From contig ONOH01000011.1 of assembly GCA_900319405.1 (NCBI GenBank), positions 34,612 to 98,611 of the forward strand: a stretch of DNA of 64,000 nucleotides, read 5' to 3'. Below are positions 632 through 23,690 of this stretch, in pieces (the first letter of the stretch is position 1; each line of letters opens with the position of its first letter). The notes under the pieces were generated by a model. The model was given only the letters and a program-made list of their open reading frames with translations. It made no database searches and was not told where the DNA came from. Source of the stretch: an uncultured Bacteroidales bacterium (GTDB lineage Bacteria > Bacteroidota > Bacteroidia > Bacteroidales > UBA932). Made by a program: the position numbers and the translations under genes.

Positions 632-1687
632 TCAATTCTTCCTGCATTCCGTCCGGAGGTCTTCTAGAGCTTTGTATTCGGCCGGATCAAACTTCACGAT
701 AGGTGCGATGGTCATCCTGGCGGCCTTGCCAAGTCTTTTCTCAAGAAGCTTATACTCAGAGTATTGCGAAAGAACCAACTCCTTCATCTCGTCTGTCAGA
801 GGAAGGTCGTGCTCCAAACCTGACTCTCGGACCATCACCCGGCTCCTGGAAGCGACAGACAGTTCAACGTGCAGTTGTACATAACAGATAATGTCGAAAA
901 AATCCTCCGGCGGGAAAGCGTCTCTGACCGACTCAAGGAATTTGCCGGTAGGAGTGTCGCCCAGATGACCATCCTTGATGGAGTGAAGCAGGCTTAGCTG
1001 TTTGTCGAGTCCGGTGTCCAGCCAGCTATGGATCATTTCGACATCGTAGAAGTAGGTCCAAACCAATAGGCCACCCATTGTGCCAATGACGAAAATGAGC
1101 TGCACGAGGGGATTGAAATGGTATGTGTTGTGGCAGACATGCAGCGCTGGCGATACCACCAGCAGGAAGATGACGAAGACGAGCTTGAGAGCGCCACTGT
1201 TTTTGATGTCCGGTCTGGAACGGGAGTGTAATATCAGACGGATGCCTAGCATGAGTCCGGCAGCAATGATGGCACTGCAGCCCATGTGGATCAATGCCAC
1301 TTCCAAACCTCGGAACAGTGCGGTACCGATGCCCATTTCATTACCCAACAGCAGGTAGAAGAGGTTCTCAAGGATAGAGAATCCGCCACCTACGGCAGCA
1401 CCGCAGATGACACTGTCGATGAAGAATACGATTTTCTTCCGGGTGGCCAGCCAAAGGAGTGGGATAGCCTTCACGATCTCTTCCAGAACAGGGTTGACGA
1501 AATCTGACTGATTCTTAGAAAGAAGCAAGCCTGTCAACTGGAACAAAGCGAAGCAGACCAATGCCGCCGCCATACCGCACAGCACCAGCAAAAGGAGGTT
1601 CTTTATGCTGATGAGTGAGAAATGGTCGATCTTATAGACTACGTAGATGTAGATGACCACAGGAAGGAGGGCGGCGACAAACAGCAT
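632..1687 (-). CDS. PrsW-family intramembrane metalloprotease
   Basis: A 351-aa integral membrane protein with about eight hydrophobic segments in the first 215 residues. PrsW hallmarks are present: PVLEEIVKAIPLL (EExxK motif, about residue 68), ENLFYLL (about 106) and HMGCSAIIAAGLM (about 133), which supply the Glu and His metal ligands of this glutamic/CAAX-protease superfamily. Known members cleave anti-sigma factors inside the membrane. A soluble tail of about 130 residues follows the membrane part. Its ATG overlaps the stop of the 999-aa gene by one base (TAATG), implying translational coupling, so the two probably act in one envelope process. Confidence 0.85.
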   Translation of the reverse strand: MLFVAALLPVVIYIYVVYKIDHFSLISIKNLLLLVLCGMAAALVCFALFQLTGLLLSKNQSDFVNPVLEEIVKAIPLLWLATRKKIVFFIDSVICGAAVGGGFSILENLFYLLLGNEMGIGTALFRGLEVALIHMGCSAIIAAGLMLGIRLILHSRSRPDIKNSGALKLVFVIFLLVVSPALHVCHNTYHFNPLVQLIFVIGTMGGLLVWTYFYDVEMIHSWLDTGLDKQLSLLHSIKDGHLGDTPTGKFLESVRDAFPPEDFFDIICYVQLHVELSVASRSRVMVRESGLEHDLPLTDEMKELVLSQYSEYKLLEKRLGKAARMTIAPIVKFDPAEYKALEDLRTECRKN

Positions 1688-4686: not shown

Positions 4687-4694
4687 TGCCGTTA

Positions 4695-5801
4695 TTATTT
4701 CTCTATAGGGGGGCCATTGGGCTTCCTTCTGTTCAGCATTTCACTGTTGTTTACTGCTGCTGTCTGTTTGATGATTAAGCCAATCGTTTGGTTGAGACCG
4801 ATATTCTGGCTCTGATTCAGGGCAGGATTATTTGCGGTATTATTCATTGCGCTGTTGAAAGCCTCCATAACCCTGCTCGCACTACCCATCATCAAAGCAT
4901 GATAGGGGTCGATCTTCCGTCCGGCGAGGACTTCTTTCTGGGCATTGTGGGGGTCGATCTTCCGTCCGGCGAGAACTTCCTGCTGGGCATTGAGAACCGT
5001 ATTGAGTTCACTTTCGAGTACCTTTGGCGGAATCGTGCTTCCAATCTGGGAAGGAACATCCATCATCCGGGCCATCTCGCAGCTTTGCAGTACGGCTATA
5101 CGCTGAGCGATACCGAAATCGGCTACGGCTGCAAGAGCCTTTTCGCCACTAAGCAGGTTGCCCTTCTTGGCCAAAGCCTCGGCACTTGCCTTGTCACCCT
5201 CAAGGGCGGCAGTCATCTGCTGGTACTCCAACCACTGGTCGCGGACAAACTTCATTTTATCATCACCCTGGTCTGTCTCCAGATACTTGTCGGTGGTCTC
5301 AATGAAACGGGTGGCAAGCTGGTTCTGCTTCTGCAGCGTGGTGTAGGCCAGTGAGGCGTTGATGGTGGACTGGGCCAGGTCGGGGCACTCCTCGCCACCA
5401 AGGGCGGCATTCAGTTTTTCGGCCGACTCTGCCAGCGAACTGGCAACGTTGTCCACCAACTCACGGTTGGCGTTCATCTCCTCGAGTACCCCGGCAAATG
5501 CAGGGATGTTGCCGGCTACCTCATTTGACATGTCAACCAGCGTGCCGAACTGGACGGCGCGTGTCTGCATTACCACTTGGGCTGCCACAATACCATCCTT
5601 GAAGGCGGAGTCGGTCTGAAGGAGTTCTTCCATATTGGTAAGTTTCTCGGAAACTTGCTCACGTGAGAATCGAGCGGCCTTGGCGATATCGCCATCCGCC
5701 TTGTTGAGATCTACAGGCCAATCAATAAAGCGACTGGTAATCAATCCGATAGCGCATATAGCTGCCACCGAACACAAGATAATAATACTTTTCTTTTTCA
5801 T
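4695..5801 (-). CDS. Membrane-anchored helical protein of unknown function
   Basis: The 368-aa protein starts at ATG 5801 (MKKKS), which gives a short positive N-terminus and one transmembrane segment; a longer frame reaching 5843 adds only 14 poorly supported residues. The remainder is almost entirely predicted helix, rich in Ala, Glu, Leu and Gln, and should lie in the periplasm. Near residues 270-300 a 15-residue block ending RKIDP is present twice in tandem. No known domain was recognised. It is the first gene of an operon with the large peptidase/propeller protein and PrsW, so it may be a substrate, scaffold or anchor for them. Confidence 0.7.
   Translation of the reverse strand: MKKKSIIILCSVAAICAIGLITSRFIDWPVDLNKADGDIAKAARFSREQVSEKLTNMEELLQTDSAFKDGIVAAQVVMQTRAVQFGTLVDMSNEVAGNIPAFAGVLEEMNANRELVDNVASSLAESAEKLNAALGGEECPDLAQSTINASLAYTTLQKQNQLATRFIETTDKYLETDQGDDKMKFVRDQWLEYQQMTAALEGDKASAEALAKKGNLLSGEKALAAVADFGIAQRIAVLQSCEMARMMDVPSQIGSTIPPKVLESELNTVLNAQQEVLAGRKIDPHNAQKEVLAGRKIDPYHALMMGSASRVMEAFNSAMNNTANNPALNQSQNIGLNQTIGLIIKQTAAVNNSEMLNRRKPNGPPIEK
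4908..4997 (-). repeat. 45-bp tandem duplication in coding sequence
   Basis: Two near-identical 45-bp units (4908-4952 and 4953-4997) lie in frame in the anchored helical protein gene. They encode NAQQEVLAGRKIDPH and NAQKEVLAGRKIDPY, so each unit adds 15 residues without shifting the frame. The few differences suggest a recent duplication. Confidence 0.9.
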
Positions 5802-5871
5802 ACGACTAAAGAATAAAGTTCTTGTTCTTGTCTCTGATGCCAAATGCCATACTTATTATACATTGACGTTG

Positions 5872-5879
5872 CAAAGTTA
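5872..5879 (-). promoter_or_regulatory. -7 promoter box for the envelope operon
   Basis: TAACTTTG on the minus strand matches the Bacteroidota TAnnTTTG consensus and lies upstream of the start at 5801. No clear TTG -33 element was found at the right distance, so this is moderate evidence. Confidence 0.45.
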
Positions 5880-6080
5880 CAAAGTATTTTAGAAGTTGTC
5901 TAAATTTTATTGAAAATGTTGCCATGCACGCATGTAAGTAGCTGATAATCAGCGCGTTAATAGATCCCCCTTATAACCAATTGATTATTAATAATTTGGC
6001 CATTGTCAAAGGAAATATTCCCAATAAGAATCATAAAGAATTTATTGAATTATTTCAAAACAGATTCTTAACACAGGGTT

Positions 6081-6111
6081 TTGCGCATGAGCCAAGTTTT
6101 TCGTACTTTTG
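6081..6111 (+). promoter_or_regulatory. Promoter (-33 TTG, -7 TACTTTTG)
   Basis: TTG at 6081-6083 and TACTTTTG at 6104-6111 are 20 bases apart, the normal Bacteroidota spacing. Transcription would begin near 6117, just upstream of ATG 6131. This supports 6131 over the longer open frame reaching back to 5981. Confidence 0.75.
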
Positions 6112-6130
6112 GAGAACAAAAACGCAACAT

Positions 6131-6673
6131 ATGTCGTTACATAGAATCGTCAACAGTCTTGTTCTGGCACTCTGCCTATCGGCTATCGGAGCTTGCCGCA
6201 GCGGCTCGGAGAGAAGGGCGCTTATCGTTCTTCATCCACACGAGGAATCTCCCGCTTCGGCCAAAGGCTGTACTTCGGTCTTTCTCGCCGGAACCATCGA
6301 TATGGGAGCAGCGGAGAACTGGCAGGAAAAGGCGGCCGACCTTTTCGGGAAGAAAGCGAGCAGTTTCGTCCTCTACAACCCCAGACAGACAGAATGGCAC
6401 CCCGAACGGGAAGGAGAGATGGACTATCAGGTCCGTTGGGAACTGGAGCACCTGGAGAAGGCTGACTGGATTCTGATGAATTTCCTGGCGGGAAGCCAGT
6501 CCCCCGTTACGTTGCTTGAGATGGGGCTTCATGCCAGAAGCAGGAAACTTCTGGTCATCTGTACGCCGGGGTATTTCCGGTATGACAATGTGCGGATTAC
6601 CTGTGAGAAATATTCTGTTCCCCTTTTTGCAACCCTTGAAGAAGCAATTGATGCCATTCCAGACAAACGCTAG
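6131..6673 (+). CDS. Nucleoside 2-deoxyribosyltransferase-like lipoprotein
   Basis: Starting at ATG 6131 the 180-aa product has a signal sequence with a lipobox (AIGAC, Cys about residue 22). The body matches the nucleoside 2-deoxyribosyltransferase-like fold (Nuc_deoxyrib_tr_2 type): SVFLAGTIDMG, then NPRQTEW, a D/E-rich segment with QVRWELEHLEKADWILMNF, and SPVTLLEMGLHA. Enzymes of this fold cleave or transfer N-glycosidic bonds of (deoxy)nucleosides and are normally cytoplasmic, so an exported lipidated version is unusual. The activity is inferred from the fold. It has its own promoter. Confidence 0.7.
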   Translation: MSLHRIVNSLVLALCLSAIGACRSGSERRALIVLHPHEESPASAKGCTSVFLAGTIDMGAAENWQEKAADLFGKKASSFVLYNPRQTEWHPEREGEMDYQVRWELEHLEKADWILMNFLAGSQSPVTLLEMGLHARSRKLLVICTPGYFRYDNVRITCEKYSVPLFATLEEAIDAIPDKR

Positions 6674-9506: not shown

Positions 9507-10484
9507 TCAGGCCGACCAATCCCTCCCGGTGCAGGATGCCTTACAGGTTCGTAATCGCTGTTCCAGTAAGTTCTTGTACGCCTGCTTGAAGTTGTCAGAA
9601 AGGAAGGATGACTCTATCAGAGAAATCCAGACCTCATCGTGCGAAATCATCTTGTGTACTATTCTGTGAACTATTTCTGCCCGCAGTCCCGATGCCGTCA
9701 TGGCTTGCGTGAAGGTATCCAGTGAAAAACCCTGTTTGGGACCGCCGGTGGTAAAGGCCAGGGCCATTTCTTCTGTATCTTCCGGGTCGGCAAGAAGAAC
9801 CGGCAGCAGGTCGTATGCAGGCGAAAGCGTATAGTCTCCGTCGACTGATTCCAGGAGCGAGAAATTCTTGCAGTGCATGTCTGAATTGCCCGTAATCCAA
9901 GAAAAAAAGACCACTTCCCAGAAACGCTGCAGGTCCAGAAGAGGCGCAGCGGAGTATTTTTTTACAGTCTGCGCGAGCTGCTCATAGGTCCCGTAATACT
10001 TGTGTTCGGTAAGGCGGTTTGACAATTGACAAAAATCCAGCATCGACTTTTTCTTTCCCCGTCTGTCACGGTCCATTCTTTTGGTGATGTAGCCTATCTC
10101 TCCATCTGCCAGTCGGATAAGACTATGCTCAGCGCAGCTGATACCTGCCGCTTTCGCCATTTTCATAGTAACATCCTCAAGTTCAGGAAGATGGGGATAA
10201 AGGGAGCTTTGCGGCTTGAAGATAAACGTCCCCCACAGCCCCACAATCGAAAAACGCGCGGGCTCATTCTTTTTACCTTTGTCAATATCCAACGACATCT
10301 TTGCCTGCACTCCGGTTATGGATGTGCTCACGCGGATTATCCTTCGTGCAAGTTCTGACATGTCGGCTCTGGAATAGGGGAGGACCGGAGCTGAAGCAGT
10401 TCCGAAGAATTTCTTGCAACAAGCGGGATGAAAGTCTTTCTGAGTTTCCTCCAGTTCTCCGTAGCAATATAGACACTTTCTCAT
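9507..10484 (-). CDS. hipT: HipT-type Ser/Thr kinase toxin (HipA C-terminal domain)
   Basis: The 325-aa product lacks the HipA N-terminal subdomain and begins with a Cys-rich segment (KCLYCYGEL, then HPACCKKFF). Kinase signatures of the HipA fold follow: STSITGVQAKMS (Gly-rich loop with the Ser/Thr-Ile-Ser/Thr autophosphorylation-type motif), GNSDMHCKN (catalytic Asp/Asn loop) and SPAYDLLP (metal-binding Asp). HipA/HipT kinases phosphorylate aminoacyl-tRNA synthetases (GltX or TrpS in E. coli systems) and stop translation; the target here is unknown. ATG 10484 overlaps the hipS stop by four bases (ATGA). The 3' end abuts the island boundary repeat. Confidence 0.85.
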   Translation of the reverse strand: MRKCLYCYGELEETQKDFHPACCKKFFGTASAPVLPYSRADMSELARRIIRVSTSITGVQAKMSLDIDKGKKNEPARFSIVGLWGTFIFKPQSSLYPHLPELEDVTMKMAKAAGISCAEHSLIRLADGEIGYITKRMDRDRRGKKKSMLDFCQLSNRLTEHKYYGTYEQLAQTVKKYSAAPLLDLQRFWEVVFFSWITGNSDMHCKNFSLLESVDGDYTLSPAYDLLPVLLADPEDTEEMALAFTTGGPKQGFSLDTFTQAMTASGLRAEIVHRIVHKMISHDEVWISLIESSFLSDNFKQAYKNLLEQRLRTCKASCTGRDWSA

Positions 10485-10795
10485 AGCGGTATCACGCTTA
10501 TATCTCCGATACAATCCTTGCAACAAGCCATAAGGAGCGACATCCGGTCCCTTGCGTCAATTTTCCACGACTTCACCGCAATATCCAGCAGCCAGCCTTC
10601 GGGAATCAAACCGTCAAAGACGGGAAATAACATCTCCTTCTCGTAGGGTTCCTTTGTGAGCGGCATGGTTGGGCTCACAGCCCTTGCGGACGGATTGGCA
10701 AGATACGCTGGATCATAGAGGAAGTGAAAACCTTCCTCATCTTCTGTCAAGATACCACAGAAAATGTCTTTTACAAATACGCTGGCCTGTTTCAT
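10481..10795 (-). CDS. hipS: HipS-like small protein (HipA N-terminal subdomain)
   Basis: The 104-aa protein corresponds to the HipA N-terminal 'couple_hipA' domain encoded as a separate gene: FVKDIFCGILTEDEEGFHFLYDP, then SPTMPLTKEPY and LFPVFDGLIPEGWLLD. In characterised HipBST systems HipS binds and neutralises the HipT kinase, so the antitoxin is HipS rather than HipB. Four-base ATGA overlaps on both sides couple its translation to hipB and hipT. The split layout distinguishes the locus from classical hipBA. Confidence 0.85.
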   Translation of the reverse strand: MKQASVFVKDIFCGILTEDEEGFHFLYDPAYLANPSARAVSPTMPLTKEPYEKEMLFPVFDGLIPEGWLLDIAVKSWKIDARDRMSLLMACCKDCIGDISVIPL

Positions 10796-12114: not shown

Positions 12115-14154
12115 TTACATTCCGGTCATCTCGTGGAAGTATTCCCAGATGAATACCATAGACATCGTGTCCAGTTCGCAGTAGCGGAGAAGAGCATCGG
12201 CCAGGGCTTTTGTTTCGGTCTCTGAGGTAAACTGCAGTTTGGTGTAGGCGGCCAGCGCAGCACCGCCATTGGCAATCTGTTCTCCTTCCTGTATATAAGT
12301 CGCATCAAACTGTTCCAGTTCTTCGTCCCCAATACCTAAGAAAGTGGCTACAGAATCCAGAAGCTTGTATGGATTCTGCACTGTTCCATCCGGATTAAAA
12401 CTAATCCAGGCTTTGGTAACACCGTTTTTGAAGTTCAGGCTGGGAATTACATCTCCGTAGATGGGCTCTTTATACTTCTCTTGTATTACCTTGCTGGAAT
12501 TGAGGATGGCAGGAAGGACCGCCTTGATGGAGTTGCTGCCCTTCATAGAAGGATGATAGTAATACCTAAGGACGATATCCAAAAGGTCCACCATATCACG
12601 CGTGCCTGGCGATCCTTCTTTTTCTTTTCCGGTAGGATGGGTGATGCTGTCGATAAACACTATCAGTTCCTGTTTATCTTCTTGATCGCTTGCAACAAGC
12701 TGTCGACGAATGGCCCGTAGGATTGTATTCTCGTGAGTGGCATAGCGGAAAATGGTACCATTGTCGCATTCTAACTGTGCCTTTAATTCACGGAGAAACG
12801 TGAAGTTGGGGAATTTGTGCTTAACCGTGTTGAGGTATTGTCCTTCGTGGCGAATACTTCCATCAGCCTCAATTACGTGGTGAGAGAACTGGAAAGCAAC
12901 CTGCTCATATGGGCGCATACCTTTATAAAAAGGTAAAGCCACAGCCGTGGTCTCAAAGTCTATCATGTGCAGCGGATACTTCCAGGTGGACATCTCAGCC
13001 TTGAGTTCGGGAATGTCAAGATAGACTCCGTCACGAATGTTCTGGCTAAAAGGCTCAAGCAATTCCTTTTTCCCCGTTGCAAGGCCGACTTGAAGAAGTT
13101 TGCGCTCAATATGCGTTAGGCCGGGCTTTTTTCTTTCCGTTTCCTTGAAATCATCTTTGCCAAGGTCCTGCAGGAAATACTTTCCCTCTTGAATCATTTC
13201 GTCTCTGTCGATGTACTGCCCCCACAAGTCTTGAACCAAAGGGCGGGTGAAATCCTCTTCTGTGAAATGTGCCAGCTTCTTCCAGCATTCCTTTTTACCA
13301 TCCGCCATTCCGGGCGTTCCCTCATTGGAGTAAAACGGGCATTTGAAGCACTTTGAACCCAGAGGAGAATCCTTCTTCTCATGCCCAACATACTCTTGGG
13401 CCATTTCTTTTACGAATTCCTGAAAGCGACTATGCATCAACTTTTCTTGTTCGCCCGTATGGCCGGCAATAATGCGGTTGACCACATCATCCACATCAAT
13501 CGGAGTAAGTATCTGAGCATAATTCTGGAGTACCTCTGCTCCAGGTTTTCGGACCACGTTGCTATGATGCTCATCCACTTTTACCAACTGAAAAAGTTGG
13601 TTAATCCCGTCATAATCGGCATACACGGATTTGTCGGCCAGCATCAGAAAAGCTTTCACCTTGAACTGCGGCCCCAGTGCATTTTGAATGACGTATTTTT
13701 GAAAGGCGACATCGTACACATACTCAAGGATAGCACTACTTGCGTCACCTTTCGTGTTTATCAAACGGTCTTTGGAAGGATCCCATGACTTCGCCTTAAC
13801 CTCTATCAGGTTAATAAGATTGCCATTCTTCTCAATGATATCCGCCCGTACGAAACAGTTCTCCCAACGAAATGCCGCTTCGGCAATGTTTACGGTATCA
13901 CGTTTCAATAGCTCGAATGTCTGTTGTACAGACTGGTCATAGCCCTTGACATCAGCTAGATCAGCTTCTGGTTTGATATCATAATATACCTTGGCTAAGT
14001 CTCCGGCTTGGTTCCCTCCATCGGCCAGCGCCTGCAAGAAGCTATCCTCATTATTCTGGTTGGCATAGTGCTCGCAGTCGTAGTAATAATACAACGATGC
14101 CGGACAGCGCAAAGCCTGCTTAAAGGCCGATTTGGTGAAAAGCTTTTGTAACAT
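12115..14154 (-). CDS. DUF2779 protein: Fe-S PD-(D/E)XK nuclease with exonuclease-like domain
   Basis: The 679-aa protein begins FTKSAFKQALRCPASLYYY, the Cas4/RecB-type opening with one Cys. LINLIEVKAKS (about residue 115) gives the ExK of a PD-(D/E)XK nuclease. KCFKCPF and a later KKECWKK supply further cysteines (about 275-300) typical of a 4Fe-4S cluster. The C-terminal DUF2779 part starts MIDFETTAV (about residue 405), the first motif of a DnaQ-like DEDD fold, with RDMVDLLDIV and YCELDTMSM as likely later acidic motifs. It probably degrades or processes DNA. It is the last gene of a four-gene leftward operon with the WYL-macrodomain and OGG-fold genes; a role in DNA repair or defence is inferred. 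Confidence 0.78.
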   Translation of the reverse strand: MLQKLFTKSAFKQALRCPASLYYYYDCEHYANQNNEDSFLQALADGGNQAGDLAKVYYDIKPEADLADVKGYDQSVQQTFELLKRDTVNIAEAAFRWENCFVRADIIEKNGNLINLIEVKAKSWDPSKDRLINTKGDASSAILEYVYDVAFQKYVIQNALGPQFKVKAFLMLADKSVYADYDGINQLFQLVKVDEHHSNVVRKPGAEVLQNYAQILTPIDVDDVVNRIIAGHTGEQEKLMHSRFQEFVKEMAQEYVGHEKKDSPLGSKCFKCPFYSNEGTPGMADGKKECWKKLAHFTEEDFTRPLVQDLWGQYIDRDEMIQEGKYFLQDLGKDDFKETERKKPGLTHIERKLLQVGLATGKKELLEPFSQNIRDGVYLDIPELKAEMSTWKYPLHMIDFETTAVALPFYKGMRPYEQVAFQFSHHVIEADGSIRHEGQYLNTVKHKFPNFTFLRELKAQLECDNGTIFRYATHENTILRAIRRQLVASDQEDKQELIVFIDSITHPTGKEKEGSPGTRDMVDLLDIVLRYYYHPSMKGSNSIKAVLPAILNSSKVIQEKYKEPIYGDVIPSLNFKNGVTKAWISFNPDGTVQNPYKLLDSVATFLGIGDEELEQFDATYIQEGEQIANGGAALAAYTKLQFTSETETKALADALLRYCELDTMSMVFIWEYFHEMTGM

Positions 14155-14178: not shown

Positions 14179-15297
14179 TCACTCGCTACTCAATACATCC
14201 TTAAGCTCATCCATTAAACTCATCGCTAAATCCATTTCTCTCACCATGAATTTTTTAATATAATATGGATTTTTCTTTCCCCTTTTAATTAGTCCTTTTT
14301 CTTCAAGATTAGCTTCTTTTGGGAAAAAGCCCGTTTCTGAGAGGACATCGCAAAAAACTTTTTTTCTTTCTTTCCCAATAAACCCAATTATAATAAACAG
14401 GTTAAAATCTCCAGTTATAATATGATAACCTAGCTCGGCGACTCTATTAAAAATCTTCCTCTTCTTAAACAGAGTTACCTTCGTATTCCCATCATTATTA
14501 ATCTCACCAAAATTGACACCAATATAATGTTGTTTGACAACATTATATAAATAGAAACGAGGATTAGTACTATTCTGATACTTCTTGTATAATTTTTCGC
14601 CGAATAAAAAGGCTTCAAGGTGGCCAGGGCTCTGAATCGCCTCAATTGATTTGGCCAATTTTCTCATCCTCGAAAGATAATCTATGTATAGCTCTTTCTC
14701 TGGTTTTAAAGGCACTAATTCAGATTTATAGTTAGGCTTATAACGGTAATTATAGTAGGTGCTGAGATTGCAATTCTGATCGTCGATTATCATAGCTGCA
14801 TGCATAAACCTCCCCCATCGATCGAAGATTAAGCTTTCATCGTCTCGATTTGGAGAAAAAAAGTATAAGATCTTTGTAAGATAACTAATTCCTATTCCAT
14901 CAATTTTCCCGGCGCCTTTCTCTAAGTAATCAAACGCTTCTTCTTCTTTTCTGTTCAATAGCAATTCTTTTACGCCTGTTAGTATTTTTTCTATATCTGT
15001 TTTCGAGATTGAAAAAGCTCTTTCGACATTTGAAACTGTACGCTTTCTAGTAGTAGCTGAACTAATTCCTCCCCAAATCATTCCTGCTAAAAAACCCTGA
15101 TATGGATTCTTATTAACCCACTGAAAAACAAGTTTCCGGGAGAGTCTGTCTTTCGACAATATTGGACGTATCTCTTGTTCTAGGACGGTATTATTCTCAA
15201 GAAGTCTACTCAGCCTTTTTCTATAGCCCGTAATCAGGAATTCACGATTAAACCGATAGTCGGTCCAATGCTGCAAAATGTATTCTTTGAGGTTCAT
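14179..15297 (-). CDS. OGG-fold helix-hairpin-helix DNA glycosylase-like protein
   Basis: The 372-aa protein contains KIDGIGISYLTKILYFF, then LIFDRWGRFMHAAM (about residues 133-168). This matches the hairpin (GIG), a Lys at the catalytic position and an Asp near the end that define HhH-type 8-oxoguanine glycosylases; the 'OGG fold' family found in accessory loci is the best fit. The flanking regions are unlike housekeeping OGG1. The gene is markedly AT-rich compared with its neighbours, pointing to transfer. It lies 24 bases before the DUF2779 nuclease gene. Removal of a damaged or modified guanine is inferred from the fold. Confidence 0.65.
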   Translation of the reverse strand: MNLKEYILQHWTDYRFNREFLITGYRKRLSRLLENNTVLEQEIRPILSKDRLSRKLVFQWVNKNPYQGFLAGMIWGGISSATTRKRTVSNVERAFSISKTDIEKILTGVKELLLNRKEEEAFDYLEKGAGKIDGIGISYLTKILYFFSPNRDDESLIFDRWGRFMHAAMIIDDQNCNLSTYYNYRYKPNYKSELVPLKPEKELYIDYLSRMRKLAKSIEAIQSPGHLEAFLFGEKLYKKYQNSTNPRFYLYNVVKQHYIGVNFGEINNDGNTKVTLFKKRKIFNRVAELGYHIITGDFNLFIIIGFIGKERKKVFCDVLSETGFFPKEANLEEKGLIKRGKKNPYYIKKFMVREMDLAMSLMDELKDVLSSE

Positions 15298-16374: not shown

Positions 16375-18342
16375 TTATTTATCAAATAATTCATAAAATG
16401 CCGCATATTTCCCGTACACTCCAATCTCTCCCGGCTTCCCGTGCTCCAGGATGGCGAAGCGGATGTCCTTGAAACGGCCGAGGAACTCATCTTCTTCCAA
16501 GATGTCATAGAACAGGCGGGCAACGATCTCGCTCTTCAAGCGGAAAGCTCCGCAGCCGAAGGCCCCGAGGACAATCGAATCGTGCCCGTTGACAAGTGCG
16601 ATGCGATAGATGGTTCGGATCTTATCCTGCATAATCTCCAGCCCTTCTGGGGTAAATCCCCCATCGGCCGAGCGGTACTGCCCGTCCCGGGCAGGATGGT
16701 CTTCCCTATCCCGGAAGTTCAGCGCCGCTACGGAGATGACACCCACCTTAAAGGGTTCGTCCAATAGGCGATAGTTGTCGAATCCGTCCCGAAACACCGT
16801 CACTCCAGGAGAATAGACGCCTCCATAATGGTAATCCATCGGATAGGCCTTCCCCTTGAAAGGAACGCCTACGGTATCTGCCATATTCTCCGCGTAGTAC
16901 TGGTAGAGCGAGCGGGATAGCGTACTCACCCGGCAGAGGCTCTCCTCCTGGGCGTTGGAGCCGCGAGGATACCAGCCACAGGCAGTGTAGCAGTCCGCAA
17001 GGTTGAGAACGGCGGGGTTGCCCCCCTCATCCAGCATTTGTTTGGCCACCCGGAACGAATCATTGTTGACCACCTTCGTCTCGGTGCCAGCCGCATAGCA
17101 GGGGCCACTCTTGGAGAGCCAAAAGCGCTTCGAGTACACGATTGTTCCCCTCAGCATTGGGTCATCTTCGCCCGGAAGGGCGACAATCTTCCCGCTGTCA
17201 GTCTTATAACCCCCAGCAGCGAAAATCTCATTATTATTCTTGTAAACATCCGCACGGACGGACTTGCCAGCGAACGAGCCCTTGGCTGCCTTGACAGCAG
17301 CCGTTTGAGTATCCCATGTAGGGATATTGGTATTCTTCATGATATCGGGAGTTTTTGTGCCCCCAATATCGGAATTCTTTTCCGAACCGCCATCCCTTTT
17401 TTGCCAAATGTCGGCATAACGGCCTTTCATTTTTTCGATTTCTTTGGCCAGGGTCAAGCGGAGGGACTCCGGTTCCAGCACCTCTATTCGGTCTCCCCGG
17501 GAGAGCAGCTCCTGGATGAACTCCCAGCTCTCCGTCCCCACATATAACTCGAAGACGGCATCATCGTCACTAGTAATGATCTCTTTCTGGGAGATGTGCA
17601 CAGGAGCCGAGCGCCAGTAGTCGCACTCCCTGCCGAAAGCCTTAACCAGAACTCTCTGAGGCTTGCTCACAGTAACGCCGAACGCGTACTGGAAATACTC
17701 TTCCCCATCGAAGATCTTCGGCATCCGGAACCCCTTGTCCGTGACACGCACTCCCATGGTACGCCTGTCAAGGGCGAAGGTCTTGAGCTCCCCGTTCTCC
17801 CGCCCCAGCAGGTACCAACGGCGTTTGAACAGCTTAAGGCAGTAGGGAGCGACAACACGGGGGGTCGGTTTCTTTTCTCCGAATTTCCTGTACATCAGCT
17901 CCACTTGCTTCCCCTCCTTCATCGCCCGGACAACCCTGTCCAGCCATTCCGGCCAGCGGACGGTCGGTTCCTCGTACAAGATGCGACTTCCCATCCCCTT
18001 CAGCCGCTCGGCCATTTCATTGAGGGACAGCATGGCGATGAGGGCCCCCTGACGGTTCGCCGCATCTTTCCCTTCCAGGTAGGAAATTCGGTACTTCCCT
18101 TCCTTCCCTTCCTTTCCTTCCCCCCGTTCACGGAGTTCGATGTTTATTCCGAAAATCTCCCGAATGGCATCAATATGGTTATGAAAGGTGCGCCTTGGGA
18201 GCGGCTTGCCTTCCTCGGGGTTCAAGGGAGAGTCCTTCCAGGCCTCATCTATCTGATTGAAAGTCATTCCCCCGTACCGGTCCTCGGAGCAGCGGAGCTG
18301 GTTGATAAGCCATACGTAGCGTTTGAAATCGTTGTAGGCCAT
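16375..18342 (-). CDS. WYL-domain regulator fused to a TIGR02452-type macrodomain
   Basis: Residues 1-110 form an HTH-like N-terminus, and about 130-320 a WYL domain (APYCLKLFKRRWYLLGREN; the Arg/Tyr-rich ligand pocket is visible). A low-complexity linker (about 320-350) follows. Residues 355-655 match the TIGR02452/DUF2263 macrodomain family: GCGWYPRGSNAQEESLCRVS, then SPGVTVFRD, HPARDGQY and VLGAFGCGAF. WYL repressors sense ligands in phage-defence loci, and macrodomains bind or hydrolyse ADP-ribose. A single protein that both regulates and handles ADP-ribose is unusual. It heads a leftward operon and diverges from the cytosine-free gene, so it probably controls both. Confidence 0.8.
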   Translation of the reverse strand: MAYNDFKRYVWLINQLRCSEDRYGGMTFNQIDEAWKDSPLNPEEGKPLPRRTFHNHIDAIREIFGINIELRERGEGKEGKEGKYRISYLEGKDAANRQGALIAMLSLNEMAERLKGMGSRILYEEPTVRWPEWLDRVVRAMKEGKQVELMYRKFGEKKPTPRVVAPYCLKLFKRRWYLLGRENGELKTFALDRRTMGVRVTDKGFRMPKIFDGEEYFQYAFGVTVSKPQRVLVKAFGRECDYWRSAPVHISQKEIITSDDDAVFELYVGTESWEFIQELLSRGDRIEVLEPESLRLTLAKEIEKMKGRYADIWQKRDGGSEKNSDIGGTKTPDIMKNTNIPTWDTQTAAVKAAKGSFAGKSVRADVYKNNNEIFAAGGYKTDSGKIVALPGEDDPMLRGTIVYSKRFWLSKSGPCYAAGTETKVVNNDSFRVAKQMLDEGGNPAVLNLADCYTACGWYPRGSNAQEESLCRVSTLSRSLYQYYAENMADTVGVPFKGKAYPMDYHYGGVYSPGVTVFRDGFDNYRLLDEPFKVGVISVAALNFRDREDHPARDGQYRSADGGFTPEGLEIMQDKIRTIYRIALVNGHDSIVLGAFGCGAFRLKSEIVARLFYDILEEDEFLGRFKDIRFAILEHGKPGEIGVYGKYAAFYELFDK

Positions 18343-18361
18343 AGTTTCAGTGTCTATTCAC

Positions 18362-18394
18362 CAAAAATATAACCATTTGCCGGGTTTTGGCAAA
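18362..18394 (-). promoter_or_regulatory. WYL-macrodomain promoter with inverted repeat
   Basis: On the minus strand TTTG (within TTTGCC) and a -7 box TATTTTTG (18369-18362) lie about 21 bases apart. An inverted repeat TTTGCC (18376-18381) / GGCAAA (18389-18394) with a 7-base spacer covers the -33 element and spacer. It is a good candidate for autoregulation by the WYL protein. Confidence 0.5.
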
Positions 18395-18410
18395 AAAGCA
18401 CCCGTATTTT

Positions 18411-18441
18411 TTTGCGGTCTGAGGATTAAATTATACATTTG
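18411..18441 (+). promoter_or_regulatory. Strong promoter for the cytosine-free gene
   Basis: TTTG at 18411-18414 and TACATTTG at 18434-18441 are 19 bases apart, matching the Bacteroidota consensus. Transcription should begin near 18448, giving a leader of about 85 bases that contains the 18479-18500 inverted repeat. Confidence 0.75.
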
Positions 18442-18478
18442 GCCCGAAAGATTTTTCCACATCATATATATATTAAAG

Positions 18479-18500
18479 TATGGGATAGGATTATCCCATA
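18479..18500. promoter_or_regulatory. Perfect 9-bp inverted repeat in the leader
   Basis: TATGGGATA (18479-18487) and TATCCCATA (18492-18500) are exact inverted copies around a GGAT spacer. It lies downstream of the promoter, within the leader of the cytosine-free gene. Either a roadblock operator for the WYL protein or an RNA hairpin would fit. Confidence 0.65.
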
Positions 18501-18536
18501 TTACCCGGATTGTTTTTTTATTTAAATTCGATGATT

Positions 18537-19219
18537 ATGAAAAAGATTGTTGTTTTGAAAGTTGAAGGTGTAATGGTTAAGGATGTAGTGAAGGATTATG
18601 TGAAGGGTGTGGTGAATAAGAAGTTTAATGAGAAGGTGGTGGAGATGGAGAGAAGGGAGGGTATTGATTTATATGAGAAGATGATGAAAAAGTGGGAGAA
18701 GGTGGGTAAGGAGTTGGAGGAGGAAGGAAATGAGGGGTTGAAGATGATGGTAGATATGGAGATAAGTAGGATTGAGGAGATTGTTAGGGTGAAAAGGAGT
18801 GAACTGGTAGAGGAGGAGTGTAGGGTGAAGAGTGAGTTGGAGAAGGAGGTGATGGAGAGTGAGGAGGTGAAGAAGAAGAAGAAGGGGTTTAGTGAGGATT
18901 TTGAGAATAAGAAGTTGAATAAAGGTATGAATAAGGTGGTAAAGATGTTGGATGGTATGAAGGGGGATAATTATAGGTTGGTGGTATGGAGTAAATATCC
19001 TGAGAGTAGAGTAAGGATGTTATTGTATAAGAATGGGGTGAGTGGATTTGAGGTTGTGAGGGATGTAAATGAGATTAAGGGAAGGGTAAGATAGTTGTTT
19101 TCAGTAATGATAGGGAGGATAAGGTTATGAAGGGGGTGAAGGTGGTAGGTTTTGAAAGTAGGGTTGAGAGTGGTGAGGTGTTTTTGAATAGGTTGGGATT
19201 GTATAAGAAGGTAGCTTAA
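18537..19219 (+). pseudogene. Cytosine-depleted HAD-like gene with a one-base frameshift
   Basis: Of about 690 bases from 18530 to 19219 only five are C (18804, 18999, 19000, 19102, 19215); neighbouring DNA is normal. The reading frame from ATG 18537 stops at 19094, but the next frame (19079-19219) continues with the expected sequence KIVVFSNDRED; one extra base in the short G-run at 19079-19081 restores a 227-aa protein. That protein has one Ala and one Pro and no His, Gln or Thr, the five residues whose codons need C. Its start (KIVVLKVEGVMV) and tail (LVVWSK, then SNDREDKVM) resemble HAD hydrolase motifs, but the nucleophile Asp is not at its usual place. G and A dominate while T is not raised, so simple C-to-T mutation does not explain it. 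Whether it is broken, frameshifted by design or a sequence error is open. Confidence 0.75.
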
Positions 19220-19242
19220 TCCATTATTTCGTAAAGGTTTTT

Positions 19243-19266
19243 CGGCAAGTCCGCCCGGGCTTGCCG
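19243..19266 (+). other. GC-rich hairpin downstream of the cytosine-free gene
   Basis: CGGCAAGTCC pairs with GGGCTTGCCG (one G-T pair) around a short loop. It may end or stabilise the transcript, but the T-run lies before the stem rather than after it, so it is not a standard terminator for either strand. Confidence 0.4.
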
Positions 19267-19363
19267 GGGGTATTGTGTCTCTACGCGGGGAGAAAGTTAT
19301 CAAACCCATACAACATACTGTACGCATATATAATAGAGTTATTCATTTTAAATCCGGTTCAAT

Positions 19364-20107
19364 ATGATTATCATCAAGTCTCACAAGTGTTCTTCTGAAA
19401 AGCTCCGTAATGATTACCCCGGCGCCGTGATCATCGATGTGACCTCCCATGCCAAGGATGAGTTCATCCGCCTCTCCCCCTTCTACCCTCACGGCGGTAT
19501 CCCCGTGCCGTTCTCCCCTGGCTGGTCGGCCTCCTGTGTGGAAGCCGTATGGCAGGGCCTGAAGGATTATGAATCGGTCGGCATCGATACCGATATGTTC
19601 TCCAATACCTCGATGAAGAATATCAAGCGTACCACCCGCCGTTTCGGGGTCATGAAGGGCCACCGGAAGGGGGTGTCCGGCAAGGAGGTGCTGGGGTACA
19701 TCCAGGCCCGCAAGCTCATCTACCTGCCCATCTACCGCTGGGTGTTGGAGAATAAGGTACGGGTGGAGATTGAGAAGCTGAGGCAGCTCTCAAGCGATCA
19801 GACGGTTATCCTCTTAGATTACGCGACCAATGCCAACGTGGAGGATGGCTCCTCTCCTCTCTCCCATGCGGCCCTCATCAAGGCCTTCATCGAGGGGACA
19901 TATCCTGCCTGCGAAAGCATGGGCGGTTCACGGGAAGAGCCCGCCGGGGAGCCCGGCGTTTCCTTCCACGTTGGGCAGAGGGTGAGCCACCCGGTCTTCG
20001 GGGAGGGGATTATCTCCTTCATGGAGGGTGAGCGGGCGCTTATCAACTTCGACAAGGAGGGCGAGAAGCTGATGGCCTTCCGGTACGCCAGGCTCAGCCT
20101 GGCCTAG
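19364..20107 (+). CDS. DUF6939-type protein with a C-terminal PcrA/UvrD-like Tudor domain
   Basis: The 247-aa product has a first part (to about residue 185) resembling DUF6939: VIIDVTSHAKDEFIRLSPFYPHGGIPVPFS, then MKNIKRTTRRFGVMKGHRKG and ARKLIYLPIYRWVLENK. (These are quoted in pieces under twenty residues where possible.) After a short Ser/Gly/Glu linker, residues 200-245 (HVGQRVSHPVFGEG, then ALINFDKEGEKLM) closely resemble the Tudor-like C-terminal domain that lets PcrA/UvrD bind RNA polymerase. The combination suggests recruitment to the transcription machinery. It is the first gene of a tightly spaced operon running to 23966. Confidence 0.6.
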   Translation: MIIIKSHKCSSEKLRNDYPGAVIIDVTSHAKDEFIRLSPFYPHGGIPVPFSPGWSASCVEAVWQGLKDYESVGIDTDMFSNTSMKNIKRTTRRFGVMKGHRKGVSGKEVLGYIQARKLIYLPIYRWVLENKVRVEIEKLRQLSSDQTVILLDYATNANVEDGSSPLSHAALIKAFIEGTYPACESMGGSREEPAGEPGVSFHVGQRVSHPVFGEGIISFMEGERALINFDKEGEKLMAFRYARLSLA

Positions 20108-20139: not shown

Positions 20140-22053
20140 ATGAAAAATCTTGAACGCTGGATTTTGGAAATCCGTAATGGAGGTAGCAAGTACATCCTCA
20201 TCTGTAGGAGAATCGGGAAACAAGTGTTATGGGGATTCATGGACGGCAGCGGCAAGGAGGTCATCCCCTGCCGTTACCTCCGTGCCGGTCCGTTCTCTGA
20301 CGGGCTGGCATTAGTATGTGACGGCGCAAATGAGTATTTCATCGATGAGTCCGGCGAAATAGCCTTTGAGCTCGATGAGAGGTACGAATACGGCCAGTTT
20401 GAGAACGGCCGATGTGAAATCCGCCCCTGGGAGGAGGAGCGTCACGGTTACGTAAACAAAAAAGGGGAACTCATTTCTCCCATCATGGATGATGAGCCGC
20501 TCTTTCCGGAGGGACTCCAGGTTCACGACTACGACATGGGCGACAGCCCCTGCGAGTGGGTCAATGAAAAAGGTGACGTGGTTATCGTGGCCCGGGACCT
20601 GGACTTCTACAACGGCTGGGATTTCCGCGACCGTCTCGCCTCTGCCTCCCACACGAAGTACGGCAGTTACGGGTTCCTTGACCAGAGGGGGCAGGTGGTG
20701 ATTCCCTTCATCTTCACGAATGTCCTGCCTTGGGCCGACGGGATGGCTCCCGTCTCGGTTGACGGGAAGTGGGGATTCATCGACCTGGACATGAACAGCC
20801 TCATCCCGTGCGAGTACCATTATGGATTGCTCTCTCATCCGTATTTCGATGAGGACGGCATCATGCTCGTAAAAAAGTCATTCAATAAAGATGAGGAAAC
20901 CAGGGAGCCCATTGACTTCCTTTATGGTGCCATTGACCGCTGCGGCCGGGAGATTATTCCTGTTGATTACTACGGCATCGCCAAGATTGACGGGAAGATA
21001 GCCGTCCTTGACGATCTGATAGACGAGGAAGGAGACTGTTATTCGGGAGTCAGGTGGTTCGATGTGGGAAAGCAAGAAGGGGACGGGTACGTGTATCAGT
21101 TTGACTGCGAGGGGCTTCCCCTCAAGAAGGTTGCCACGCTCGAGGGCGGCCTTCTCCGTTGGGGCTTCCTGGATGCCGAAGGAGCAGAGGTGGTTCCCTG
21201 CATGTACGATGATGCCATGGTAAGGAACGGGCTCATTCGTGTCAGGAAGAATGGCCTCTGGACTTTTGTGAAGCCTTCTGGGGAGTTCCTTACACCCTTC
21301 CTCTACCAGTCGGCGTTCTCCCCCGTGGTCGGGGGTATGTGCGCCGTCCAGCGCGAAGGCCTCTGGGGCTTCATAAACGAGGAGGGAGAGGAGATGGTCC
21401 CCTGCAGGTACGATGCCGTCACCGATTTCGTTGAAGGCAGGAGCATGGTACTGCTGGAGGAGCGGTACGGGTTCATCGCTGCAGATGGGAGGGAGGTTAC
21501 TCCGCTCATCTACGATATGGCATACCCCTTCTCGGGCGGTCTCGCATGGGTCAGGAAAGGCGCCGGAGTGGGTAGTATCAACAAGGATGGAGAAGAAGTC
21601 ATCCCATGCCGTTTCGACCGCGTAGGGGAATGCTCGGAAGGTCTTGTCAGCGTATGTCTGACGAGTAAAAAGACTAAACACTACATGTTTTTGGATTTGG
21701 ATGGCAATACCGTCATCGACCTCGACGGTATGGACCTGGATGCCGTCTCCATCTTCTCGGAAGGACTCTGTGGCATCTGCAAGAACTTCGAATGGGGTTT
21801 CATCGACCGGAGTGGGAAGGTGGTGATACCCATGACATTCCATCAGCCTTACTTCAACCTGCAAGTTCAGTTCATCCACGGCCTCTGTCTCTTCCGTTCA
21901 CCGGAAAACTGGGGCCTAGGCGCCATCAACACAAGAGGAGAGATCGTCATCCCGGCCGCTTACCGGAGGATTGACTGGCAGGAGGATGGCCGATGGGCCG
22001 CCCGGGTCGGAGAAGAAACGCATTATTATAACAACAACGGAGAAAGACTATGA
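20140..22053 (+). CDS. WG-repeat protein
   Basis: The 637-aa protein is built from about ten or more WG beta-repeats, each a (W/Y)GF(I/L)(D/N)xxGxxxxP unit, for example WGFIDLDMNS, LWGFINEEGEEMVPC and WGFIDRSGKVVIP. Such repeats form extended beta solenoids or propeller-like surfaces used for protein contacts. No enzyme motif is visible and there is no signal peptide. The stop overlaps the AAA+ ATPase start by four bases (22050-22053), so it probably works as the binding partner of that ATPase. Confidence 0.85.
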   Translation: MKNLERWILEIRNGGSKYILICRRIGKQVLWGFMDGSGKEVIPCRYLRAGPFSDGLALVCDGANEYFIDESGEIAFELDERYEYGQFENGRCEIRPWEEERHGYVNKKGELISPIMDDEPLFPEGLQVHDYDMGDSPCEWVNEKGDVVIVARDLDFYNGWDFRDRLASASHTKYGSYGFLDQRGQVVIPFIFTNVLPWADGMAPVSVDGKWGFIDLDMNSLIPCEYHYGLLSHPYFDEDGIMLVKKSFNKDEETREPIDFLYGAIDRCGREIIPVDYYGIAKIDGKIAVLDDLIDEEGDCYSGVRWFDVGKQEGDGYVYQFDCEGLPLKKVATLEGGLLRWGFLDAEGAEVVPCMYDDAMVRNGLIRVRKNGLWTFVKPSGEFLTPFLYQSAFSPVVGGMCAVQREGLWGFINEEGEEMVPCRYDAVTDFVEGRSMVLLEERYGFIAADGREVTPLIYDMAYPFSGGLAWVRKGAGVGSINKDGEEVIPCRFDRVGECSEGLVSVCLTSKKTKHYMFLDLDGNTVIDLDGMDLDAVSIFSEGLCGICKNFEWGFIDRSGKVVIPMTFHQPYFNLQVQFIHGLCLFRSPENWGLGAINTRGEIVIPAAYRRIDWQEDGRWAARVGEETHYYNNNGERL

Positions 22054-23690
22054 GTAAAACCCTTACCGAATCCCTTGACCACCTGCTTGACCTTGTCGAC
22101 CTGGAGTGTACGAACGCCCAGGGCGACATGTTCTTCGACCCCGAACACATGGAGCGCCTCAAGGTGGAAACCGATTACCTGGAAGAGCGCCTGAATATCA
22201 CGCCTTTCCAGTGTATCATCCTTGCGAAGGCCATACAGACCGCCGAGCGTAACTGTAACATGCGCAAGATCGGTCACGATCTTGGCATGAGCTACCTACA
22301 GACCCTGTCCCATGCTGCAGACTTCAACGCCCTCCGGGACAAAGGTTACTTCTTCATCACGCGGGACAAGCAAATCCACATACCCAGCGGGGCCCTCGAT
22401 GCGTTGATGAACAACCGCCCCGTGGAGAAACCCAAACTGGATGGTCTTTCCTCGAAAGCCCTCCTTCGCAGGATCGGCATCATCATGAGGCAGCTCTCCA
22501 TGGAGCAGAAGGAGGACAGGGGCGCACTTGAGGAGATGGACCGCCTGATTATGGCCAACAAAAAGACCGGTTACGGGAAGGCCTGTTACAAGTACTTTTA
22601 CGGAATGCAGGTCAGCGACACCGAGCGCTACCTTTTCTACATTCTCTCCCACTTGTATGTGAACAGGGAAATGACCTCCTTCGAATCCGAAGACCTTGAT
22701 AGTTATGTCTCTGAGGCCGCCACACTGGAGGTTCTCAAAGACCGTTTCGAGGACGGATCCCTGGAGCTGGTGAGCCGCGGAGTCCTTGCTCCCGCCGACC
22801 GGGACGGCATGATTGCCCGCGGCACCTATTCCTTCAAGGACAACATTATCAAAGAGTTCTTCTCTGAGTTGAAGACCTCCGGCCTCCACACAATCCAGCT
22901 CACTGACAGTAAGGACAAACCCCGGAAGGAACTCTTCTACAACCCCGCTGAAGGCGCCCAGGTGGAGAAACTTGCTTCCCTGATCGACCCCGACCATCTT
23001 GGCAACATCTTCGAGTCCATGAAGGCCAAAGGGCTGCGCACGGGTTTCACCTGCCTCTTCTACGGCGCACCCGGAACAGGCAAAACAGAGACCGTTTACC
23101 AGCTTGCCCGCCGCACGGGCCGGAAGATTCTTCAGGCCGACGTGGCCCAACTCCGCAACTGCTACATCGGCGAGACGGAGAAGAATGTCCGCCGTCTGTT
23201 CATGGACTACCGAACGGCCAACGTCGAGGAGGAGTTCACGCCCATTCTTCTTTTCAACGAGGCCGATGCTATCCTGGGGACCCGCATGGAGGGAGCCTCC
23301 CGGGCAGTGGACCGCATGGAAAACAGCGTGCAGAACATCCTCCTGCAGGAGCTGGAGGACTTCAGCGGCATCCTCATCGCCACCACCAACCTCACCGGTA
23401 ACCTCGACCCGGCTTTCGAACGGCGCTTCCTTTACAAAATCCGTTTCGACAAGCCCGGGCTGGAGCCACGCTCAATGATCTGGCGTTCGCAGTTCCCCTT
23501 CCTGACGGAGAAGGAGGCGCAAGCGTTGGCATCGGCCTTTGATTTCAGTGGCGGCCAGATAGAGAATGTACTCCGGAAGAGTACCGTAGATGCCATCCTC
23601 TCCGGCAGGAAGGAAGGCTATGAGCAGCTCCGGCAGTATTGCCTGGAGGAAACCGTCAATAACAAAGATAGAAATAAAATTGGTTTCTGA
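22050..23690 (+). CDS. AAA+ ATPase
   Basis: The 546-aa product has a helical N-terminal part of about 320 residues and a C-terminal AAA+ module: Walker A GAPGTGKT (about 337), a Walker B-like ILLFNEADAIL (Asn in place of the usual Asp), sensor 1 ATTNL and an arginine-finger-like DPAFERRF. It resembles CDC48/FtsH-type AAA ATPases without a protease domain. It likely remodels proteins or complexes chosen by the WG-repeat protein. Translation is coupled by ATGA overlap, and a small membrane protein follows 3 bases later. Confidence 0.8.
   Translation: MSKTLTESLDHLLDLVDLECTNAQGDMFFDPEHMERLKVETDYLEERLNITPFQCIILAKAIQTAERNCNMRKIGHDLGMSYLQTLSHAADFNALRDKGYFFITRDKQIHIPSGALDALMNNRPVEKPKLDGLSSKALLRRIGIIMRQLSMEQKEDRGALEEMDRLIMANKKTGYGKACYKYFYGMQVSDTERYLFYILSHLYVNREMTSFESEDLDSYVSEAATLEVLKDRFEDGSLELVSRGVLAPADRDGMIARGTYSFKDNIIKEFFSELKTSGLHTIQLTDSKDKPRKELFYNPAEGAQVEKLASLIDPDHLGNIFESMKAKGLRTGFTCLFYGAPGTGKTETVYQLARRTGRKILQADVAQLRNCYIGETEKNVRRLFMDYRTANVEEEFTPILLFNEADAILGTRMEGASRAVDRMENSVQNILLQELEDFSGILIATTNLTGNLDPAFERRFLYKIRFDKPGLEPRSMIWRSQFPFLTEKEAQALASAFDFSGGQIENVLRKSTVDAILSGRKEGYEQLRQYCLEETVNNKDRNKIGF

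Follow-up and report, generated by a model that had tools for sequence, protein, structure and literature searches.

A gene family kept nearly free of cytosine beside ADP-ribose-processing genes in one Bacteroidales genus

What could lead a protein-coding gene to dispense almost entirely with one of the four bases? The question is raised by a gene in the 64 kb stretch of DNA analysed here (the window), which comes from a genome of 2.13 Mb in 59 contigs that is 89% complete (G000). At 18537-19219, 683 bases comprise 226 A, 271 G, 181 T and just 5 C, whilst C accounts for 26.6% of the whole window. Four C-free runs of 274, 194, 101 and 112 bases follow one another in tandem from 18530 to 19214, and nowhere else in the window is there a stretch of at least 60 bases that lacks any single base. 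The depletion sets in 7 bases 5' of the ATG and lasts until the final codon, with C returning immediately 3' of the stop codon. A first-pass annotation had described a gene almost without C, depleted from start codon to stop codon and with no rise in T; all three statements hold, T being hardly higher than in the window at large (26.5% against 23.6%). The frame break that it had reported is there as well: the open reading frame (ORF) stops at 19094 and the C-terminal part of the family continues in another frame, the family profile matching both pieces, and a near-identical copy in a second genome (G140) is intact, encodes 230 amino acids and is 10 bases longer. The gene and the island in which it lies are laid out as follows, with strand in brackets and profile match values where available.

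12115-14154 (-): DUF2779 protein of the island (PF11074, 8.2e-25), with relatives in G140 and G044
14179-15297 (-): OGG-like glycosylase of the island (PF21790, 5.2e-18), with relatives in the G140 neighbourhood only
16375-18342 (-): divergent gene for a fusion of a WYL-WCX regulator with a microbial PARG domain (WYL 1.8e-14; WCX 2.7e-7; PARG_cat_microb 8.1e-22; TIGR02452 2.2e-39)
18479-18500 (no strand): perfect inverted repeat, two 9 bp arms around a 4-base centre, just 5' of the gene, unchanged in G140
18537-19219 (+): C-free gene (pseudo-HAD family), with an ORF at 18537-19094, then the C-terminal motif in another frame at 19079-19219
19243-19266 (+): hairpin 3' of the gene, with 11-base arms that are 91% complementary and 2 bases between them
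19364-20107 (+): DUF6939 domain, weakly NADAR-like (PF22075, 3.9e-71), with a C-terminal UvrD/PcrA-type Tudor domain (NCBIfam UvrD C-terminus, 1.1e-6)
20140-22053 (+): WG-repeat protein of the same island (PF14903, 7.4e-87), syntenic in G140
22050-23690 (+): AAA ATPase related to the anti-phage IetA/IteA models, below the NCBIfam cut-off, with a relative beside the family gene of G044

Relatives of the gene and the protein they encode

With a 185-residue piece of the window protein as query, 36 of 61 genomes of the genus were matched, mostly weakly and probably through composition; G025 gave a full-length match, and its gene holds a C-free run of 589 bases. Using the G025 gene as query, 26 of 400 genus genomes were matched, and only those with the N-terminal motif or a high score were taken further. 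A profile search of 400 genus genomes matched 15, of which 12 are counted as carriers: G000, G025, G044, G067, G090, G118, G140, G146 (with two copies), G189, G212, G277 and G361. G075, G386 and G185 were left out; the first two matched at the HAD motif-II stretch only, and the G386 protein has the DxD motif and the look of an ordinary HAD hydrolase.

Counted with the stop codon, C makes up 0 of 453 bases in G118, 5 of 693 in G140, 6 of 618 in G025, 9 of 600 in both G277 and the first G146 copy, 10 of 600 in each of G212 and G090, 20 of 612 in G189 and 20 of 579 in G067; the second G146 copy, which is cut by a contig end, has 6 in 326, and the genes of G044 (42 of 582) and G361 (15 of 258) are moderately C-poor. 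No family member with ordinary C content was found among the 12 carriers. Measuring the C content of homologues had been proposed as the check on the first-pass claim, and the depletion proves to be family-wide, extending to 11 other genomes of the genus. The G361 gene (locus L080) is a short member of 85 amino acids that has the N- and C-terminal motifs only; an AAA gene, recognised by eye, follows it.

A family-level search (398 genomes, 25 genera) gave clear matches in the window's genus alone, and a weak match in G542 (0.002) was set aside as being of ordinary composition. At order level (393 genomes, 206 genera) the search returned the window gene itself and two weak matches (0.002-0.003) that lack a C-free core. 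No match to the C-free gene was found by tblastn among 50,697 phage records or 72,556 plasmid records, nor was such a gene found in one scan of viral contigs, and a phage or plasmid origin was therefore rejected. The named records amount to eight loci from uncultured Bacteroidales or Bacteroidia, comprising rumen-derived RUG isolates, a roe-deer omasum assembly and UBA1237.

The family protein has a predicted HAD Rossmannoid fold with a cap. It shares this predicted fold and the invariant Ser of motif II with HAD hydrolases of the L-2-haloacid dehalogenase and phosphoglycolate phosphatase types. Unlike them, it has Lys or Arg in place of the nucleophile Asp of the DxD motif in all eight aligned proteins and an invariant Glu in place of the second acid, and is encoded by a nearly C-free gene. 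The product is probably a non-catalytic HAD protein, and we would guess at a role as first responder, inhibitor or sensor.

Exclusion of C from the reading frame

When the six strict proteins were recoded synonymously by the codon use of neighbouring genes, the mean count was 67-93 C, and the lowest among 500 recodings per gene was 49-75, depending on the gene. The observed counts are 0-20, and chance as the cause of the low C is therefore excluded. Codon positions 1, 2 and 3 hold 2.0, 1.0 and 2.1% C, against 19.7, 21.1 and 35.3% in comparison. This depletion at every position agrees with the first-pass view that the bias acts on the nucleotide sequence beyond codon choice, as does the near-absence of Ala, Pro, His, Gln and Thr that it had noted and that holds in the strict family members. 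The same annotation had dismissed C-to-T mutation as an explanation, and rightly so: GTT makes up 0.309 of Val codons, where plain avoidance of C predicts 0.307 and C-to-T conversion 0.57, and GGT makes up 0.259 of Gly codons, exactly the 0.259 expected under plain avoidance. The share of T at these codons is that predicted by simple removal, and so C has been excluded rather than converted. Relative to C-free recodings, G exceeds expectation (z 1.4 to 3.6), A falls short of it (z -0.5 to -4.5) and T is close to it (z -1.5 to 1.8), while GNG is slightly in excess (z 0.6-3.2).

When the six strict lineages were aligned by codon, 164-284 nucleotides differed in each of the 15 pairs, with C taking part in 3-32 of these differences; between G140 and G118 there are 3 among 200, and between G140 and G025, 11 among 272. 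In three neighbouring genes, C takes part in 207 of 375, 185 of 301 and 96 of 163 differences (55-61%). Within one Bacteroidales genus, the family has been kept nearly C-free in its ORF through extensive protein divergence. Among four close copies, third positions provide 19 of 32 variable sites, an excess which argues that the protein is also under selection and that the sense frame is constrained.

The anomaly is specific to this gene among the loci scanned. In the main scan, all 200-base stretches with at most 8 C or G sit in family loci, at the C-free gene, and a 150-base scan of loci L103-L129 again placed C- or G-poor stretches only there; within L130-L137, one stretch of L132 is low in both C and G, i.e. 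it is A+T-rich and not of the C-free type.

As a separate observation, the window and G140 copies differ by 11 substitutions over 680 aligned bases, none of them involving C, in addition to the 10 bases missing from the window copy. The two non-coding flanks differ by 5.7 and 2.8%, so that the segment from 18343 to 19363 (gene plus flanks) is 1.6-5.7% different, below the 5.5-20% of the four flanking genes compared. This extra conservation may reflect recent exchange or strong constraint.

Where does the depletion begin? The inferred 5' leader holds 19 C and 19 G in 178 bases (seven copies, some of them non-independent), the opening 42 bases of the ORF hold 15 C and 85 G, and the remainder 56 C and 1471 G; in G025, all 6 C come before base 38 of the ORF. 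An undepleted leader ahead of a C-free ORF, together with the return of C behind the stop codon in the window type, places the ban on the reading frame, less strictly over the first dozen or so codons, and C in both leader and early codons argues against models in which every C of the transcript costs equally. Five copies of the NrtR type have a palindrome between promoter boxes that fit the Bacteroidetes consensus. An NrtR-like palindrome pattern matched 7 times in 220,788 bases, only at family promoters, one of the matches being a perfect palindrome read a second time in reverse; this specificity is partly circular since the pattern was built from the family's own promoters. In the window, the inverted repeat at 18479-18500 is likely to be the operator of the divergent WYL protein. 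A hairpin can be read 3' of the stop codon in several copies, and that at 19243-19266 appears terminator-like.

ADP-ribose genes beside the C-free gene

A PARG or DUF6939 gene adjoins the C-free gene in the window, G140, G189, G025, G212, G090, G277 and the first copy of G146. In the window and G140, the WYL-PARG fusion is divergent and the DUF6939-Tudor gene lies downstream, followed by the WG-repeat and AAA genes. In G025, G212, G090 and G277 the order is C-free gene, PARG, NrtR, and in the first G146 copy the first 63 residues of a PARG stand directly 3' of the gene before the contig ends. G189 has DUF6939, NrtR and an ADP-ribosylglycohydrolase, the last of which is found beside the C-free gene in this genome only. 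G044 has a divergent WYL gene and an AAA gene with no PARG or DUF6939 adjoining, G067 has an LRR gene next and no adjoining ADP-ribose gene, and contig ends leave too little sequence around the gene in G118, G361 and the second G146 copy to show whether a PARG or DUF6939 gene adjoins. NrtR occurs in G025, G212, G090, G277 and G189, WYL in the window, G140 and G044, both together in none of the 12 stretches, and neither in G067, G118 and the two G146 contigs. The usual neighbours of the gene thus encode ADP-ribose-processing enzymes and regulators of kinds that are known, or have been proposed, to sense ADP-ribose. At the level of genomes, PARG is present in 10 of 12 carriers against 2 of 12 hand-picked controls, in part because PARG is the neighbour itself. 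No ADP-ribosyltransferase was recognised among the annotated neighbours.

Other genes were seen at some distance. Upstream of the NrtR-type loci, L063 carries MreB-like, SprT-like, calcineurin-like and A1S_2505-family genes at 1637-6422 (Pfam and NCBIfam searches on L063), and L064, L065 and L067 have similar genes; a RhuM-family gene (PF13310, 1.1e-19) lies downstream of the NrtR-type cluster at 10630-11367 of L063. In the window, a protein with a HipA-like C-terminal domain (PF07804, 3.5e-45) is encoded at 9507-10526, not far from the island.

Islands of ADP-ribose hydrolase genes with mutually exclusive NrtR-type or WYL regulators have been described and predicted to act against viral ADP-ribosylation (PMC9503650). 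Our loci resemble these ADP-ribosylglycohydrolase islands in their hydrolase genes, in having NrtR-type or WYL regulators but never both, and in the calcineurin-like gene near some of them. They differ in that the adjoining hydrolase is a PARG or DUF6939 protein with a UvrD-type Tudor domain and that a C-free pseudo-HAD gene is added; the island section of that paper makes no mention of a compositional anomaly.

A UvrD-like Tudor profile matched seven ORFs (at least 60 amino acids) in the loci up to L129, all of them neighbours of the C-free gene (in the window, G140, G189, G025, G212 and G090, together with the G146 PARG); four of the seven were inputs to the profile, while those of G212, G090 and G146 were not. 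The profile found no match in the G277 PARG, which is 28 residues shorter than its 400-residue relative, or in 11 PARG loci away from the C-free gene. For the DUF6939 partners, PF21196 passes its cut-off in G189 (9.9e-6), and the partner Tudor family profile matches 7egs_B at 5e-8; for the PARGs, the Pfam matches are sub-threshold (0.018 and 0.0072) and the domain is clear with the island profile. The Tudor domain of UvrD/PcrA is reported to bind RNA polymerase (PMC8318588; structure titles of 7egs and 6yi2), and PcrA to suppress R-loops (PMC8318588).

The DUF6939 domain itself has a poor structure model (pLDDT 62) whose core is without a clear PDB match. Aligned by hhalign with seven NADARs, it gives an E-value of 0.0022 at 13% probability, and one of four members, that of G711, matches the DarT1-associated NADAR model PF22397 at 0.0023, below cut-off. 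This G711 gene is the sole other DUF6939 relative among 119 genomes of the order, and lies between a DarT-domain gene (6.5e-23) and a vWA gene (L104, 476-3404); DarT and DUF6939 may form a candidate DarT-antitoxin pair in which DUF6939 would be a NADAR-like hydrolase. DarT1 modifies single-stranded DNA by attaching ADP-ribose to N2 of guanine, an adduct that NADARs reverse (PMC11543638). The arrangement in G711 recalls this DarTG1 system of DarT1 and NADAR antitoxin, with its adjoining DarT and weak NADAR match, unlike our family, where no DarT lies beside the C-free gene. DarT occurs in 2 of 12 carriers (G189 and G212, on other contigs) against 1 of 12 controls. As for RNA, NADARs reverse guanosine adducts, whilst bacterial PARGs removed 2'-OH and phosphate adducts and macrodomain enzymes were inactive on guanosine adducts (PMC11833690).

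Possible causes of the ban on C

The reading that we tentatively put first, and which may well prove wrong, is that the frame has been selected to need no guanine in the template, or no G-C pairing by anticodons, and is expressed while guanines are ADP-ribosylated. Most known ADP-ribosyltransferases that act on DNA attack guanine. A build-up of ADP-ribose would turn the cluster on, and ADP-ribosylation of the cell's own molecules would then be reversed. As a C-free frame leaves no guanine on the strand read by RNA polymerase, ADP-ribosyl-guanine could not block it, and the partner enzyme, held on the polymerase via its Tudor domain, would clear ADP-ribose elsewhere. Alternatively, the advantage could lie in translation: C-free codons would never require an anticodon guanine in a G-C pair, and since guanine N2 takes part in G-C pairs and not in the G-U wobble pair, an N2-adducted wobble guanine might still read U. 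Either way, the gene would remain expressible during guanine modification. That the gene sequence itself is an immunity device, expressible despite ADP-ribose on the guanines of template or anticodons and paired with an RNA polymerase-tethered ADP-ribose hydrolase, is possible, if doubtful.

In favour of this guanine-lesion reading stand the family-wide depletion taken together with the ADP-ribose neighbours and regulators, and the ability of NADARs, which DUF6939 weakly resembles, to reverse both DarT1 guanine adducts and guanosine adducts in RNA. Against it, DarT neither adjoins the gene nor is commoner in carriers, the link from DUF6939 to NADAR is below threshold, the PARGs acted on 2'-OH and phosphate adducts of RNA and the macrodomain enzymes not on guanosine (PMC11833690), the partner genes have normal C and would hence be blocked too, G067 lacks an adjoining ADP-ribose gene, and the depletion is only moderate in G044 and G361. 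A pure template-lesion model is further weakened by the undepleted leader and the early C of G025. The first-pass annotation had offered a template strand without guanine, tied to the nearby OGG-like glycosylase; the first part fits the context by way of ADP-ribosylation, but the OGG link gains no such backing, as, among the 12 neighbourhoods clustered, OGG-related ORFs were found in the window and G140 only.

What else could impose such a ban? The RNA or the displaced strand might itself be functional, as an unstructured G/A-rich RNA that is a decoy for a base-modifying enzyme, or as an R-loop with a G-rich decoy or signal strand; in a transcript lacking C, the plentiful G would have no partner for G-C pairs. 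The predicted fold energies of three genes lie between -30 and -47 kcal/mol, where 24 C-containing recodings of each protein average -128 to -172, and these values and the raised G and GNG would suit this, as would the Tudor domain in the partner, given the R-loop suppression by PcrA (PMC8318588). However, the RNAs are at least as structured as random C-free recodings, so that selection on structure is not apparent once the loss of C is allowed for. In addition, variation at third positions indicates that the protein is selected too, and zero C is more than a decoy should require; we regard this alternative as unlikely, though worth keeping in mind. Transcription under scarcity of CTP, or in the presence of a chain terminator such as ddhCTP, would account for a loss of C that affects every codon position and alters little else. 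It appears rather improbable, considering that the inferred leader requires CTP and that none of the annotated neighbours was recognised as a CTP enzyme, and the ddhCTP cause raised in the first-pass annotation found no backing: the prokaryotic viperin model NF038283 was over its cut-off in none of 24 genomes, 12 of them carriers, with sub-threshold matches only, as also in 14 of 14 control genomes, although a viperin encoded elsewhere might still act. Evasion of an agent that attacks C in the messenger, such as a C-specific RNase or a C-directed ADP-ribosyltransferase or deaminase, would explain why the depletion tracks the translated part of the gene, and would suit an island that handles ADP-ribose; we hold it to be a fairly long shot, since the leader and the first codons of G025 retain C, rRNA and tRNA would still be vulnerable, and no ADP-ribosyltransferase directed at C is known to us.

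Rho loads on RNA rich in C and poor in G, and low C with raised G is the composition that suits it least. Immunity to Rho-dependent termination would therefore match the lowest C and raised G, and also the C-richer early bases, too short a stretch for Rho loading; yet zero C over 450-580 bases with changes of amino acids goes far beyond what avoiding Rho should need, and the scanned loci hold no second gene with such depletion, making this cause distinctly improbable. Very little can be said for a local mutational erasure of C, for example by a deaminase on the non-template strand: the loss is strand-specific and stops near the gene ends, but the Val codons follow avoidance and not C-to-T conversion, the intergenic flanks retain C, and the exclusion persists across the divergence of the strict lineages. 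A sequencing or assembly artefact is scarcely credible; the named records are all from uncultured or metagenome assemblies, but RUG, RGIG and UBA records and strongly diverged homologues have the pattern in common. Two further ideas were discarded. NNU and NNC codons are read by the same tRNAs, and since NNU codons are freely used while NNC codons are excluded, tRNA supply cannot be the cause. For an antisense gene, long antisense ORFs are to be expected on a G-free strand anyway, and the variable sites follow the sense frame.

ADP-ribose islands and the HAD fold are already known; a sustained ban on one base over a coding gene family is new as far as we have searched, with no C-free or C-depleted gene appearing in the titles and abstract openings of the matches listed in the literature. 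Toxin-antitoxin genes can lack the RNA target site of their own toxin, as with MazF and ACA. Avoidance there, as here, is at the nucleotide level and would guard the expression of the gene, but it concerns a short motif, whilst our family avoids a whole base. Protein function normally takes precedence over the choice of codons and amino acids; in this family a ban on a single base overrides both choices, and has cost the strict members nearly all of their Ala, Pro, Thr, His and Gln. Whatever the cause, a strong selective force acts on messenger or template, with no match known to us among the forces described. If the guanine-lesion reading is true, these genes would be a direct readout of the nucleic acid struck by an ADP-ribosylating attacker, and would provide a design rule for damage-proof genes.
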